Shown here piece after piece: positions 27,462-32,704 of a DNA stretch of 64,000 nucleotides. The stretch's first letter is position 1. Each line of letters starts with the position of its first letter. Both the position numbers and the translations under genes were made by a program. The stretch comes from Arthrobacter sp. zg-Y20 (GTDB lineage Bacteria > Actinomycetota > Actinomycetes > Actinomycetales > Micrococcaceae). A model generated the notes under the pieces. That model saw only the letters and a list, made by a program, of their open reading frames with translations, did not search any database and had not been told where the DNA came from. The stretch lies in the NCBI RefSeq assembly GCF_030142075.1, contig NZ_CP126241.1, forward strand, positions 2,852,001 through 2,916,000, written 5' to 3'.

Positions 27462-28604
27462 CTACCTGCCCGAAATCTTCGCCACAGTGTCCCGTGCCGT
27501 CGCGCCGACGCCGATGAGCGTGGCTGAGGCAGGTCCGGTCCAATCCCCGTATCCCAGGAAGAACAGATCGGGGCCGTCGACTGAGCGGGTGCGCAGCTGG
27601 GCATCCGTAGCCGGAACACCGTTGCGGATAGCCAGGCCGAGGGGCCTCAGGTGCTGCAGGTCCGGCCGGAAGCCGGTGCACCAAATAACCGCATCAGCGC
27701 GGAGCTTCTCCCCGTCCTCCCATTGCACCCCCTCCGGGACAAAGCGGAAGAACATCGGCCGGGCCTTCAGCAGGCCGGCGTCGCGGGCTTTCCGCACCGC
27801 GGGAACGGCAACAATGTCACCTATGTCGGCGATACCGGCTGGTGCAGGCTCTCCCGCCGCGAGGGCTTTGCTGCGGCGTGTGGCGATAGAGAACAATGCC
27901 CGGCCGTCGACGTCGTCGGGCAGGTAGCGCGGCGGATGCCGCGTCACCCAAGTCACCGACGACGTTGGGGCGAGATCCGCGGCGATCTGCGCCCCCGAGT
28001 TGCCGCCGCCCACCACCACTACGTTTTGTTCGGCGAAAGGCTCCGGTCCCCGGTAGCCGGCGGTGTGCAGCTGCCGGCCGGTGAACTGCTCGCTGCCGGG
28101 CACCGCAGGGATGTACGGGGTAGCCCAGCTGCCGGTGGCGTTGATGATCGCCCGGCTGGCCCACTGCCCGTGGTCGGTGTCAGTGAGGTAGCCGCCGCCA
28201 GTGAGGTAGCCGCCGTCAGTGAGGTAGCCGCCGCCGTCGATCCTCCGCACAGCGTCGACCCGGACGGGCCGGTACACCGGCAGGTCATAGCGGGCCTCGT
28301 AAGTGCGCAGATACTGCGCAACATGCTCCGCCGAGGGGTTGCCCTCACCCGTCAAGGCGGGCATCTGGTAGCCGGGCAGGGAGCTGTAGGCAGCCGGGGA
28401 GAACAGTTCCAGGCTCTTCCAGTAGTGCTGCCAGGCACCGCCGGGCTGTCGGTTGGCGTCGAGGATGGCGAAGGTGGGCGCTGGCCCGGACCGGCCGGTG
28501 GCCTCGTCCCGCCGCAGGCGGTTCAGGTATTAGCCTGCAGCGAGACCGGCCTGGCCTCCCCCGATCACCAGGACATCGACATCCCGGGACTGGTTTTCAG
28601 TCAT
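27462..28604 (-). pseudogene. ArsO-like flavin monooxygenase, broken by one stop codon
   Basis: Read from the ATG at 28604, the frame gives TENQSRDVDVLVIGGGQAGL, then AAG, a TAA stop at codon 25 (28530-28532), then YLNRLRRDE and onward without interruption for about 355 more residues to 27462. The second half has the NADPH motif VVVVGGGNSGAQIAADL and the ATG motif CTGFRPDL. In this family the broken position is normally AGYYL, so the TAA most simply derives from a tyrosine codon. It is the last gene of the ars operon. A downstream restart would lack the FAD-binding region. Sequencing error is possible. Confidence 0.8.
28182..28235. repeat. 18-bp tandem repeat x3 inside the broken ArsO gene
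   Basis: Three units of AGTGAGGTAGCCGCCGYC encode a triplicated GGYLT-type peptide. The family has no such insertion that I know of. Confidence 0.8.
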
Positions 28605-28609
28605 AGGGC

Positions 28610-29032
28610 TCAGGCGCCCTCGGCACCGGTGAGGTCGCGGTGCAGCTCACGGACCCTGCGCTGGATGTCGTCGCGGACCAGGCGCATCCTGTCCATTCCT
28701 TCGATGCCGCGTTCGGAGGGTTCGTCGGTGTCCCAGTTCTCGTATCGGGTGCCGGCCGGCACGGTCACGGCTGCTTCGCGGCCAAGGGTCACGACGATGT
28801 CGGCCGCCCGCAGCGCCTCGTCCGTCACGGCCTTCGGGGTCTCGGCGCTGATGTCGATACCGAGTTCGGCCAGCGATTCCGCTGACTGGGCATTCAGTGC
28901 CGTACCGGGTTTGGTCCCGGCCGAGCGCACGTCCACGGTTTCACCGGAAAGGTCCTTCATCAGCCCTGCCGCCATCTGCGACTTGCCTGCGTTTTTCACG
29001 CAGATGAACAAGACGCTCGGTGTACCCGGCAT
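28610..29032 (-). CDS. arsC: Arsenate reductase, LMW-phosphatase fold with GKS-type active site
   Basis: A 140-residue low-molecular-weight phosphatase-like arsenate reductase. The active loop is CVKNAGKSQMA with Cys11; the lysine in place of the usual arginine matches the mycothiol-linked ArsC1 group described in Corynebacterium. There is no second or third cysteine for a thioredoxin-type relay, which also points to mycothiol and mycoredoxin as reductants. It begins directly after the flavoprotein stop (TGA then ATG) and ends 5 bp before the broken ArsO gene. Confidence 0.85.
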   Translation of the reverse strand: MPGTPSVLFICVKNAGKSQMAAGLMKDLSGETVDVRSAGTKPGTALNAQSAESLAELGIDISAETPKAVTDEALRAADIVVTLGREAAVTVPAGTRYENWDTDEPSERGIEGMDRMRLVRDDIQRRVRELHRDLTGAEGA

Positions 29033-30637
29033 TCAGTCCCCCTGTTCCGCGGAGCGGCCATGCTTCAGTCCGGTGGGAATACCCAGGAACGCCGGTTCGG
29101 GTGTGCTGCAGCAGGAGGATGCCGCCGGTGCGGTTTCCTCTGCTGCCGCAATGCCGGCATCCGTCCCGCAGCACGACGCCGAGGAAGACGCCGCGGGGGC
29201 CGCGGAGACAGGTTCCGGTGCCCCGCAGCAGGACGACTCCGCTTCCGTGGCCGGCACAGGCTCCGGCGCGGCTCCGCAGCAGGAAACGGACACGACTGAA
29301 CCCGCAACGGCCGGTGCATCACAGCTTGACGCTGTGTCGCAGCTGCCGTCGAGATCGGTGGAGCAGACTCCGGTTTCGGGCAGGACCAGCTGCACGTCGT
29401 CGGCAGCCTGCTGGTCTCCTGCCAACGCCGCCGCAATGGAGCGGACCTGCTCGTAGCCGGTGGCCATCAGGAATGTGGGTGCCCGGCCGTAGGACTTCAT
29501 GCCCGCAACGTAGAAATCCTTCTCCGGGTGGGACAGCAGCTGGGCGCCGTGCGGTGCCACGGTGCCGCAGCTGTGGAACTCGGGATCGATCAGCGGCCCG
29601 AGCCCCCGCGGGGCCTCAACCGACGGGTCCAGGTCCAGCCGGATTTCGCGCAGCATCTCCAGATCCGGGCGGAAACCGGTGGCCGGAACCAGCAGGTCCA
29701 CGTCAAGCTGCTTCCCGCCGTACGGCGTAGTGCCAACTACCGACAAGGTGTCTGAGGTTTTGAAGCCGGTGATGGTGAAGGCCGTGTGCAGCTCGATTCG
29801 TCCGTCCGCCACGAGGGTACGCAGCCGGCTGCCGAGCGCCCCGCGGGCGGGCAGGCCGTCCAGGTCGCCGCCGCCGTAGACATTGGCAGCGGAGGCGCTG
29901 CGGATGGCCCAGCTGATCCGGGTTCCCGGTTCCTGCTCGGCCAGTTCCCCCAGTGCCAGCAGGGTATTCGCAGCCGAGTGGCCGGCGCCCACCACCAGGA
30001 CATGCTTTCCGGCGAACCGGGACCGGTCGCGGCCAACTACGTCGGGCAGCGGGCGGGTGATCAGCCCTGCCGCGACGGCGTCCGCTTCCCCGACAGCCGG
30101 CAGTCCGGCCTGCCCCAGCGGGTTCGGCGTTTGCCAGGTGCCGGAGGCATCAATGACGGCGCGGGCCCGGTAGTCGGTAACGGTTCCCTCGGCATCTTCC
30201 ACCCGGAGAAGGAACGGGCTGTCCTCCCGGGCTCCCGTGCGCGTTTTGTCCAAGCCTTCTCGGCTCACAGCCACAACCCGGGTGGAGGTGTGCAGCGAAG
30301 CGGCAATCCCGGGGACAGCGGCAAGCGGCCGCAGGTACTGCTCCTCCAGTTCGGCACCCGTGGGCAAGGCCTCGGCATCCGGCTCCTGCCACCCGGTACC
30401 GGCGAGCAGACGGCGGGCGGCGGCGTCGACGTCGTACCGCCACGGCGAGAACAGCCGGATGTGCGCCCAGGACGCAACCGCAGCCGCAGGCGTTGCACCG
30501 GCCTCGAAGATGACCGGCGTCAGTCCGCGCTCAATCAGGTGCGCGGCAGCTGCAAGGCCCACGGGGCCTGCACCGATCACGGCGACGGGAAGTTCGGACA
30601 TCTCAGTGTTGTCAGTGTTCTCAGTGGTGTCAGGCAC
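29033..30637 (-). CDS. ArsO-like FAD oxidoreductase with cysteine-pair tail
   Basis: A 534-residue flavoprotein in the ars operon. The FAD motif VAVIGAGPVGLAAAAHLIERG is near 18-38, the NADPH motif VLVVGAGHSAANTLLALGEL near 210, and VPATGFRPDLEML near 325. This core resembles ArsO-type flavin monooxygenases found in actinobacterial ars clusters. The last 110 residues are unusual: Cys at about 425, 433 and 439, then four Cys-Cys pairs at about 453, 470, 489 and 509 in SCCGAPEP-like repeats separated by Ala/Pro/Glu linkers. The GTG start at 30637 has GAGGAAA upstream; an ATG at 30601 is an alternative. Function of the core is not proven. Confidence 0.8.
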   Translation of the reverse strand: MPDTTENTDNTEMSELPVAVIGAGPVGLAAAAHLIERGLTPVIFEAGATPAAAVASWAHIRLFSPWRYDVDAAARRLLAGTGWQEPDAEALPTGAELEEQYLRPLAAVPGIAASLHTSTRVVAVSREGLDKTRTGAREDSPFLLRVEDAEGTVTDYRARAVIDASGTWQTPNPLGQAGLPAVGEADAVAAGLITRPLPDVVGRDRSRFAGKHVLVVGAGHSAANTLLALGELAEQEPGTRISWAIRSASAANVYGGGDLDGLPARGALGSRLRTLVADGRIELHTAFTITGFKTSDTLSVVGTTPYGGKQLDVDLLVPATGFRPDLEMLREIRLDLDPSVEAPRGLGPLIDPEFHSCGTVAPHGAQLLSHPEKDFYVAGMKSYGRAPTFLMATGYEQVRSIAAALAGDQQAADDVQLVLPETGVCSTDLDGSCDTASSCDAPAVAGSVVSVSCCGAAPEPVPATEAESSCCGAPEPVSAAPAASSSASCCGTDAGIAAAEETAPAASSCCSTPEPAFLGIPTGLKHGRSAEQGD

Positions 30638-30663: not shown

Positions 30664-31089
30664 TTACTTCGCGTGGAGCAAGTCTTCGATCAGGGCGGAG
30701 ATCCGGGCCTTGATTTCGTCCCGGATGGGCCGGACCGCCTCAACGCCCCGTCCGGCAGGGTCCTCGAGTTTCCAGTCCTCGTAGCGTTTGCCCGGGAAGA
30801 TCGGGCAGGCATCGCCGCATCCCATGGTGATCACGACGTCGGAGGCCTGCACGGCCTCGGTGGTCAGGACCTTGGGCAGCTCGGCGGACACGTCGATCCC
30901 GTCTTCGGCCATGGCCTCCACGGCTGCGGGGTTGACCGAATCGGCGGGTGCTGAGCCGGCAGAGCGGACCTCGATCCGGCCCTTCCCCAATGTGCGGAGG
31001 TAAGCGGCGGCCATCTGCGAGCGGCCGGCGTTGTGCACGCATACGAACAGGACAGAGGGCTTGGTTTCGGTGGCTTTGGGGGTGCTCAT
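30664..31089 (-). CDS. arsC: Arsenate reductase, three-cysteine LMW-phosphatase type
   Basis: A 141-residue arsenate reductase. The active loop is CVHNAGRSQMA with Cys17, and Cys91 and Cys95 lie in MGCGDACPIFPGKRYEDW, the triple-cysteine relay typical of thioredoxin-coupled ArsC. This differs from the second arsC at 28.6 kb. The ATG at 31089 overlaps the acr3 stop as ATGA (31086-31089). It supplies arsenite to the exporter encoded immediately upstream. Confidence 0.92.
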   Translation of the reverse strand: MSTPKATETKPSVLFVCVHNAGRSQMAAAYLRTLGKGRIEVRSAGSAPADSVNPAAVEAMAEDGIDVSAELPKVLTTEAVQASDVVITMGCGDACPIFPGKRYEDWKLEDPAGRGVEAVRPIRDEIKARISALIEDLLHAK

Positions 31090-32198
31090 CGGTTCGTCAT
31101 TTCTTGAGATGCGGTGACTGGAGAGCCAGCGGCAGGCCAGTATTTCTTCTGCGCCCGGAGCGCGGCGTAGACCAGGGCAACCAGGACGGGAACTTCGATC
31201 AGGGGCCCGACGACGCCGGCCAGCGCCTGCCCGGAGGTCACCCCGTAGGTGCCGACTGCCACGGCGATGGCCAGTTCGAAGTTGTTTCCGGCGGCTGTGA
31301 ACGCCAGCGTAGTGGTGCGCGGGTAGCCCAGCTTCAGGACCTTGCCCAGCAGCATGCCCACACTGAAAACCACCACAAAATAAACCAGCAGCGGCAGGGC
31401 AATCCTGGCCACGTCCAGCGGATGGGAGGTGATTCCATCGCCCTGCAGGGCGAACAGCAGCACGATGGTGAACAACAGGCCGTACAGGGCCCACGGTCCG
31501 AGCTTCGGCAGGAAGGTGCCTTCGTACCAGTCCCGGCCCCGGGCCCTTTCGCCCAGGGTGCGGGTGAGGAAACCGGCCAGCAGCGGGATGCCGAGGAAGA
31601 TCAGGACACTGAGTGTGATGGCCCAGAAGGAGAACCCGACGCTGGTGGTTTCCAGGCCGAGCCAGCCGGGCAGCACCTGAAGGTAGAACCAGCCCAGGGC
31701 GCCGAACGCGAGGACCTGGAACACGGAATTGATGGCCACCAGCACGGCGGCGGCTTCGCGGTCCCCGCAGGCCAGGTCATTCCAGATCATCACCATGGCG
31801 ATGCAGCGCGCCAGGCCCACAATGATGAGGCCGGTCCGGTACTCGGGCAGGTCCGGCAGGAAGATCCAGGCCAGCGCAAACATAAACGCCGGTGCGGCCA
31901 CCCAGTTAAGGATCAGCGAGGTGACCATCAGCTTCCGGTCCGCCACCACCTTGGAGGTTTCGTTGTATCGGACCTTGGCCAGCACCGGATACATCATCAC
32001 CAGCAGGCCGACGGCGATCGGCAGGGACACGTTGGAAACCTTCACCGAGTTCAGTGCCGGGCCGATGCCTGGAACCAGCCGGCCCAAGAGCAGTCCGGCT
32101 GCCATCGCGGCGAGGATCCACACGGGCAGGAAACGGTCCAGCATCGACAGCCGGGCGGTGACCGGGCCGGTTTGGGGTGGTGCGGCGGGGGTGCTCAC
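31086..32198 (-). CDS. acr3: Arsenite efflux permease Acr3
   Basis: A 370-residue ten-segment permease of the Acr3 (BART) family, exporting arsenite using the proton gradient. The essential cysteine of the family is Cys132 in GLARCIAMVMIWNDLACGD, and GPLIEVPVLVAL near the C-terminus carries the conserved glutamate. I choose the GTG at 32198 with GAGGAG upstream; the longer frame runs into the operator region. First gene of the leftward ars operon, divergent from arsR across 110 bp. Confidence 0.93.
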   Translation of the reverse strand: MSTPAAPPQTGPVTARLSMLDRFLPVWILAAMAAGLLLGRLVPGIGPALNSVKVSNVSLPIAVGLLVMMYPVLAKVRYNETSKVVADRKLMVTSLILNWVAAPAFMFALAWIFLPDLPEYRTGLIIVGLARCIAMVMIWNDLACGDREAAAVLVAINSVFQVLAFGALGWFYLQVLPGWLGLETTSVGFSFWAITLSVLIFLGIPLLAGFLTRTLGERARGRDWYEGTFLPKLGPWALYGLLFTIVLLFALQGDGITSHPLDVARIALPLLVYFVVVFSVGMLLGKVLKLGYPRTTTLAFTAAGNNFELAIAVAVGTYGVTSGQALAGVVGPLIEVPVLVALVYAALRAQKKYWPAAGSPVTASQEMTNR

Positions 32199-32228
32199 GA
32201 AACTCCTCAGAGATTTGGGGCGACACGC

Positions 32229-32260
32229 ATCGAGAAATATCGATGGGTATCGATTTCGAG
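32229..32260. promoter_or_regulatory. ArsR operator candidate between acr3 and arsR
   Basis: ATCGAT at 32239-32244 and again at 32249-32254, spaced by GGGT and flanked by AAAT and TTCGA, gives an imperfect palindrome in an A/T-rich stretch. A CATCGA half-site is at 32229. It lies midway between the divergent genes, as expected for autoregulation by ArsR. Confidence 0.6.
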
Positions 32261-32308
32261 TATTCCCGCAGGCATCGACGAATGTCAATCCGAGTGCATA
32301 ATGGACGG

Positions 32309-32704
32309 GTGACCACTGTTCAGACCGCTTTCACCCCTGCGTCCGATGTGTCCGATGTGTCCGATGTGTCCGCTGTGTCCGATGTGTCTGAAGCCTGCTG
32401 CACGCCGCTGACCAAAGAGGCGCTCAGCGCCGAGGACGCCCAGCGATTTGCCCAGCTGCTCAAGGCTGTTGCCGAACCGACGCGGCTGCGTCTGGTCTCA
32501 CTGATTGCGGCGCAGGAGAACAAGGAAGCGTGTGTCTGCGACCTGACTGAGCCGATCGGCTTGGGGCAGCCCACCATTTCCCACCACCTGAAGATCCTGG
32601 TGGATGCCGGAATCCTGCGCCGGGAAAAGCGCGGCGTATGGGCTTACTACTCCATCATTCCCGGCGCGCTCGAACGGGCGGCTGCCGTTCTCGCTCCCCG
32701 GTAG
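32309..32704 (+). CDS. arsR: ArsR-family arsenic-responsive repressor
   Basis: A 131-residue SmtB/ArsR winged-helix repressor. The metalloid-site cysteines CVC (75 and 77) precede the recognition region GLGQPTISHHLKILVDAGIL, and a second pair, Cys30-Cys31, lies N-terminal. The combination could make a three- or four-thiol As(III) site. GTG at 32309 is the start. The first 28 residues are built of SDV repeats from a 9-bp tandem repeat. It is divergent from acr3; the operator candidate lies between them. Confidence 0.92.
   Translation: MTTVQTAFTPASDVSDVSDVSAVSDVSEACCTPLTKEALSAEDAQRFAQLLKAVAEPTRLRLVSLIAAQENKEACVCDLTEPIGLGQPTISHHLKILVDAGILRREKRGVWAYYSIIPGALERAAAVLAPR
32341..32385. repeat. 9-bp tandem repeat x5 in the arsR 5' end
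   Basis: GTCCGATGT occurs five times end to end (the fourth unit has C for A), encoding in-frame SDV triplets, just before the Cys-Cys pair. Confidence 0.9.

Follow-up and report, generated by a model that had tools for sequence, protein, structure and literature searches.

The window, the whole 64,000-nucleotide stretch of Arthrobacter DNA analysed here, holds a run of arsenic resistance (ars) genes that includes a gene for an FAD/NAD(P)-binding flavoprotein. The genes of this neighbourhood are as follows.

27471..28580, minus strand: true ArsO-family flavoprotein, downstream of the second arsC-type gene (NF040505, 479.6 bits)
28610..29032, minus strand: LMWPc/ArsC-type gene, directly downstream of the flavoprotein gene
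29033..30637, minus strand: FAD/NAD(P)-binding flavoprotein gene, 534 aa (Pyr_redox_3, 48.3 bits)
30664..31494, minus strand: LMWPc/ArsC-type gene, upstream; the match lies in residues 148-268 and the true start inside the ORF
31086..32288, minus strand: Acr3 arsenite efflux transporter, upstream (TIGR00832, 422.7 bits, cut-off 282.8)
32177..32704, plus strand: ArsR-family regulator, divergent, true start inside the ORF (NF033788, 88.6 bits, cut-off 55)

The flavoprotein gene has a GTG start with a purine-rich stretch immediately 5′ of it, and its stop codon is directly followed by the start codon, ATG, of the LMWPc/ArsC-type gene downstream. An earlier note on this DNA had placed it between two arsenate reductase genes and downstream of acr3; the arrangement stands, with both ArsC-type neighbours scoring under NCBI's ArsC cut-offs. 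The ArsR of the window has a cysteine pair of its own (EACCTPL). The frame of the true ArsO is broken by one in-frame TAA, which may reflect a pseudogene, readthrough or a sequencing error; among 120 genomes of the family, no internal stop is found in the other 20 places that score above the ArsO cut-off.

In an AlphaFold2 model of the flavoprotein (56 sequences; 533 residues, numbered one lower than the gene product) pLDDT is at least 90 at 333 of the 533 residues and below 50 at 423-467, 469-506 and 508-533. The folded core stops near residue 423 and, because nearly all of 423-533 falls below 50, the C-terminal tail is predicted to be disordered. Core and tail contain the following elements, all on the minus strand.

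29567..29569, minus strand: C357, sole core cysteine (HSCGT), invariant in 56 aligned sequences
29036..29365, minus strand: cysteine-pair tail, residues 425-534, predicted disordered
29363..29365, minus strand: C425 of LPETGVC, invariant in 56 aligned sequences
29339..29341, minus strand: single C433 (GSCD)
29321..29323, minus strand: single C439 (SSCD)
29276..29281, minus strand: CC pair 1, C453-C454
29225..29230, minus strand: CC pair 2, C470-C471
29168..29173, minus strand: CC pair 3, C489-C490
29108..29113, minus strand: CC pair 4, C509-C510
29051..29101, minus strand: terminal motif PEPAFLGIPTGLKHGRS

The stretch from C425 to C510 runs from 29365 down to 29108, exactly the extent that the earlier note had assigned to the tail, and its description of a core ending near residue 420, followed by three single cysteines (C425, C433 and C439) and four CC pairs, is borne out. 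The pairs are spaced by 17, 19 and 20 residues, and pair 4 together with the terminal motif resembles the lone unit of many actinobacterial relatives. No tandem array was found in the DNA of the window tail, its units having diverged, and four flavoprotein tails searched at E up to 10 matched no known Pfam domain. Four CC in the tail compare with 0.82 expected by shuffling (p 0.0048).

The same holds for the family at large, for which 217 loci were gathered; 213 match at E ≤ 1e-60 (the four unmatched were left out), 205 are full length with the TGVC anchor (eight of the 213 were left out for a missing anchor or an open end), and removal of 12 duplicates leaves 193 distinct relatives, the frame-shifted L075 retained. 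At least one CC occurs in the tail of 182 of these, with none in 11, one in 105, two in 47, three in 24 and four in 6, so that the tail is not special to the window gene, as had been supposed; with numbers from 0 to 4 across the family, the window tail is an expanded form of an old feature, and it is the copy number alone that has grown. Cysteine makes up 7.6% of the tails (818/10700) and 0.34% of the cores (276/80189). The CC tail is real and not due to chance. Such pairs were absent from the last 70 residues of all controls: 30 ArsO or ArsO-like proteins (drawn from a longer list, 20 of the 30 loci scoring above the ArsO cut-off) and, from the loci of the flavoprotein family, 101 Acr3, 38 TrxB, 23 MFS and 21 ArsN proteins and the ArsC ends found with two overlapping queries (162 and 158), the cysteine content of the control ends being 0.06-2.9% (ArsC 1.7-2.8%, TrxB 2.9%).

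One could regard the tail as a non-functional, low-complexity extension that drifts, and its linkers do vary freely, its length spans 4-116 residues, with 192 in a single frame-shifted tail, and CC is missing altogether from 11 of the 193 relatives. The cysteines behave otherwise. Nine close pairs with no shared member were taken from the genus; their 71 tail Cys codons show 14 synonymous and no nonsynonymous changes, as opposed to 112 synonymous and 98 nonsynonymous changes at 640 other tail codons (Fisher p 0.00034), a test in which two further Cys fell in gap columns and the aligner's preference for placing CC on CC may help the result slightly. None of 14 changes at Cys codons thus alters the residue, versus 98 of 210 elsewhere in the tail, and the 193 tails hold 295 CC where 1000 shuffles average 54 and never exceed 79; drift is scarcely credible in view of these figures. 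By the evidence of the codons, the tail cysteines are under purifying selection. A TG..HG motif of the PEPAFLGIPTGLKHGRS kind, present in the tail of 109 of the 193 relatives, is a further conserved element and a possible docking site.

The number of pairs is labile. A FastTree phylogeny of the 193 core sequences requires 46 or more changes in it, a count made without a shuffled control, and within the genus it ranges from 1, in a frame-shifted tail, to 4. In the window's clade 24 of the 25 rows have two to four pairs, and the remaining row is the frame-shifted tail. In L063 the extra pairs form a 48-bp, 16-codon tandem array of 4.1 copies, which makes in-frame duplication one route by which pairs are gained. 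L042 and L075 share one frame-shifted tail.

The flavoprotein itself was found in every one of the 29 genus genomes scanned (E ≤ 1e-30) and in 185 of 295 genomes drawn from the family (E ≤ 1e-60); the named relatives closest to it (L002-L007, L010 and L042), with 73-83% in the best segment, are from Arthrobacter. A scan across GTDB species genomes yielded 60 loci, some in Actinomycetota and Alphaproteobacteria and some in MAGs labelled Acidobacteria, Chloroflexi or Gemmatimonadales. The family also reaches plasmids, those of Bacillota included, with 125 of 72,556 records matching at E ≤ 1e-40. In another genome of the genus there is a second copy of the gene, with a broken frame (L090 and L253).

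What kind of flavoprotein this is can be narrowed down by elimination. The earlier note had called it ArsO-like, an identity that the profile does not support: the protein scores 53 bits with NF040505, the curated cut-off being 425. Since all 56 aligned members give a weak match of this sort, the family is a relative of ArsO that stands apart from it. No NCBIfam model among the matches listed gives the family a name, and none of those models is ArsV. Assignment to YpdA/Bdr (TIGR04018) was rejected as well (39 bits, cut-off 339.9); the aligned chain 7a76 has GGGPCG, the cysteine of which we take to be the YpdA cysteine, where the window flavoprotein has GAGPVG. ArsD gave no Pfam or NCBIfam match to the flavoprotein at E up to 0.001, nor did the tail alone in Pfam. 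Finally, a protein of the thioredoxin or mercuric reductase type would have a core dithiol; with C357 as its single cysteine, the core contains no CxxC or CxxxxC centre, which renders a disulfide reductase less likely.

Genomic context was evaluated in 144 loci with at least 2.5 kb of flank on each side, counting neighbours within 3 kb. An ars gene is found in 135 of them, most often ArsC (116), ArsR (100) and Acr3 (77), followed by an ArsK/ArsW-like MFS (35) and TrxB (34), more rarely ArsN (16), an aquaporin (16) or ArsO (6). The other nine match no ars query; three of these have an MFS, and one, L112, has an annotated ArsR missed by the query. This count, the purifying selection on the cysteines and the occurrence of a like module on ArsM and on an ArsR-linked DUF6428 protein (below) lend indirect support to the view, in part that of the earlier note, that a thiol tail has been conserved in connection with arsenic. 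The order arsR, flavoprotein, MFS occurs in Ensifer, Rhizobium, Nitrobacter, Bosea and Hydrogenophaga, the Ensifer MFS being ArsK by NCBI's model (513 bits, cut-off 400), and an MFS also lies 3′ of the flavoprotein in Rhodococcus, Streptomyces, Mycolicibacterium and Roseomonas. Other plasmid contexts are arsD and arsA in Pseudomonas, acr3 in Kocuria and mer genes in Staphylococcus. In several loci (L017-L026, L034, L049, L051 and L053) an ArsR-type regulator lies downstream on the opposite strand; it has an internal CC and another at its end or close to it.

The frequency of ArsC (116/144) and TrxB (34/144) near the gene would suit a redox arm, by which CC pairs pass electrons from the flavin to ArsC, thioredoxin or mycothiol, the tail swinging as in mercuric reductase or thioredoxin reductase and the enzyme serving as a reductase that recycles arsenate reductase. 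CC tails are known on disulfide reductases, so precedents exist. Such a relay nevertheless appears improbable, as the core offers C357 alone and no CxxC or CxxxxC, and GAGPVG in place of the GGGPCG of 7a76. An arsenite chaperone that supplies Acr3 with As(III), much as ArsD supplies ArsA, the main idea of the earlier note, could likewise be envisaged, since acr3 belongs to the gene run of the window and is near the flavoprotein gene in 77 of 144 loci, and ArsD has two CC pairs (according to a passage of PMC2440759). We hold this to be quite improbable: in 67 of the 144 loci no Acr3 was recognised within 3 kb, 35 have the ArsK/ArsW-like MFS, the ArsD searches returned nothing, and the role needs no flavin.

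The order of genes known for ArsV is arsR, flavoprotein, MFS exporter. ArsV, attributed to Zhang 2022 and Chen 2021, is reportedly a flavin monooxygenase of trivalent organoarsenicals and antimonite. In a passage of PMC10080717 methylarsenite is oxidised by arsH or arsV and then extruded by arsW, arsP or arsK; excerpts of PMC11719878 and PMC9144182 count ArsV among the organic arsenical oxidisers and mention it by name, respectively, and the title of Zhang 2022 has it 'widely present in soil bacteria'. The tailed flavoprotein is perhaps ArsV-like, a comparison drawn from gene order and published descriptions, not from sequence. As the gene order of several relatives and the FMO/ArsO-like profile fit ArsV, oxidation of trivalent organoarsenicals or antimonite would be the likeliest reaction, and for the same reasons the tail is taken as a substrate-catching arm. 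It would be unusual for an oxidase to lie next to arsenate reductases, save where it acts on organic arsenic or antimony. The link to reduction and export that had been proposed for the protein is not supported, the core having one cysteine and the possible counterpart, ArsV, being reported to oxidise methylarsenite.

Whether the tail occurs on other proteins, a search that the earlier note had called for, was addressed with two profiles, A2 for the terminal actinobacterial motif and A3 for the proteobacterial/acidobacterial module (consensus about CCGGPAPxxxDACCxxDxxAKxxGxxGCGCG); the actinobacterial tail and A3 are likened by their CC pairs and their place after LPxTGVC alone, not by homology. 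A2 matched 90 of 197 genomes of the family, and its strong matches, judged by eye, are at the ends of flavoprotein places. Seven odd places were looked into: five (L248, L249, L250, L252 and L253) are copies of the flavoprotein, several of them frame-broken; at L254 a helicase-like protein matches weakly; and L251, a short segment next to arsC and arsR, does not match the flavoprotein and is possibly a remnant.

A3 was found in 27 of 297 genomes of the order of Sinorhizobium americanum, in 15 of 398 of its phylum and in 5 of 297 of the phylum of an Acidobacterium MAG. These three overlapping scans give 37 distinct places, of which 33 are on the flavoprotein. The search did turn up the module on other ars-linked proteins. 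It forms, with further CC pairs, the N-terminus of an arsenite methyltransferase, ArsM (L338:1465-2499, plus strand), ahead of the NF008823 match (356 bits, cut-off 263) at residues 83-344. It also forms the C-terminus of a DUF6428 protein (L324; Pfam match at 26-171, module from about residue 169) that adjoins an ArsR itself ending in CC pairs. A free ORF of 61 residues (L325:4236-4421, plus strand), between genes for an M23 peptidase and a release factor, consists of the module; its peptide has no Pfam or NCBIfam match, and within 8.5 kb the queries used recognised no ars gene. A second module ORF, of about 68 residues (L326), is flanked by a PadR regulator and an MFS/arsH/arsC cluster; it occupies the spot expected for the flavoprotein and so is perhaps a remnant. 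What is new is this portability, with similar tails seen on ArsM, on DUF6428 and by themselves. DUF6428 (PF20001) was matched in 17 of 199 genomes, and all 17 C-termini have CC pairs, at least two in 15 of them, a sequence feature that suggests a role in connection with arsenic.

Among plasmids, a 55-residue rhizobial tail matches 14 of 72,556 records by tblastn, each match covering 80% or more of its length; five of these are annotated there, all as FAD- or NAD(P)-binding proteins, and nine are without annotation. The 33-residue module alone matches three records (best E 2). The window-type tail has no plasmid match by tblastn; as Arthrobacter plasmids carry the family and their tail still goes unmatched, tblastn is too insensitive to prove absence. 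Among the openly licensed PMC articles that literature searches brought up, a collection that does not include the primary ArsV papers, no title or abstract opening describes such a tail.

At the loci of relatives, 106 ORFs outside the flavoprotein gene have close CC pairs or an HG motif; many of those with GC3 over 0.7 are probably shadow frames. Two short frames on the strand of the flavoprotein gene, about 70 and 110 bases upstream of it, end in MDENCCTETGCCTNGTGCC (L100:3093-3149, minus strand) and MEENCCTGHTGDGQDCGCGCC (L102:3026-3088, minus strand), respectively, and are possible tiny cysteine-pair peptides of the operon. CC-rich C-terminal tails are also seen on proteins that, judged by eye, resemble cation transporters (L047:4373-4453, plus strand; L122:2217-2294, plus strand) within about 600 bases of the flavoprotein gene.

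The occurrence of the module beyond the flavoprotein bears on two of the readings. A like module on a methyltransferase and free-standing, where no flavin could reduce it, speaks against electron transfer through the tail. The two stand-alone modules (the one of L326 possibly a remnant) and the variation in CC number within the genus would both accord with a passive buffer, a metallothionein-like sponge or, in the earlier note's term, thiol reservoir that stores As(III), or Zn or Cu, and plays no part in catalysis. The invariance of C357 and C425 and the concentration of 33 of 37 module places on one enzyme, on the other hand, suggest a catalytic link, and we regard mere buffering as unlikely, if a serious contender.

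To judge from its sequence, the window flavoprotein likely carries a thiol tail for trivalent metalloids, and to this extent the earlier note's interpretation is half right. The reading preferred here, whose chances we put a shade above even, is that the enzyme oxidises trivalent metalloids and that the CC tail is a flexible thiol arm capturing As or Sb for the flavin; metalloid binding, the oxidation and hand-off to the flavin are what we infer. The protein would be an NAD(P)H/FAD flavoprotein that belongs to an FMO-like group, though not to ArsO, and acts on trivalent metalloids. Its reaction would probably be an oxidation as reported for ArsV, of methylarsenite and, going by the title of an ArsV paper, also of antimonite. 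The disordered C-terminal arm would offer its CC pairs as bidentate thiol ligands, catch methylarsenite, arsenite or antimonite, keeping the metalloid off other proteins, and present it to the flavin pocket, perhaps via the invariant C357 and C425. A CC pair provides two thiols, which suits methylarsenite, while a pair plus another cysteine suits arsenite. More pairs would mean more docking sites, and they may be gained through in-frame duplication. Counted against the thiol arm are the 11 of 193 relatives that lack a CC, the cysteine that the control ends do contain, the limited likeness between the actinobacterial tail and A3, and the neighbours in the window, which are arsC-type genes and acr3, not an MFS.

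In a wider and more tentative form, to which we give a little less than an even chance, vicinal-cysteine arms would be a portable disordered metalloid device, borne by such unrelated arsenic proteins as the flavoprotein, ArsM and DUF6428 or occurring free, which feeds As(III) or Sb(III) to whichever enzyme bears it and whose capacity is tuned by tandem duplication of units of about 16-20 residues. A countable, evolving CC arm would, if this is true, offer a generic means of channelling a toxic, thiol-reactive metalloid; on the arm reading, capacity should rise or Km fall as pairs are added, and DUF6428, of unknown function, would gain a likely role in arsenic handling.

Set beside known proteins, the tailed flavoprotein has features in common with several. 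DUF6428 proteins share the C-terminal CC pairs but have no flavin domain. ArsO is likewise an NAD(P)H flavoprotein of ars operons, yet 0 of 30 ArsO or ArsO-like C-termini contain a CC, compared with four in the window tail. In mercuric reductase a flexible C-terminal CC hands a soft metal to the active site of the flavoprotein; it shares this flexible CC with the protein described here, but has a CxxxxC centre and one pair, whereas the latter has no CxxxxC and up to four pairs. With ArsV it would share its neighbours, namely arsR and, as several relatives show, an MFS of the arsK/arsW type; the window has arsC-type genes and acr3 instead of the MFS. Vicinal cysteine As(III) sites are already known from ArsD and ArsR; such pairs, there for trivalent metalloids, are described for ArsD and the A. 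ferrooxidans ArsR (in a passage of PMC2440759). ArsD and the CC-type ArsR are, however, small proteins with one or two pairs, whereas here the pairs, up to four of them, sit on a predicted disordered arm of an enzyme.
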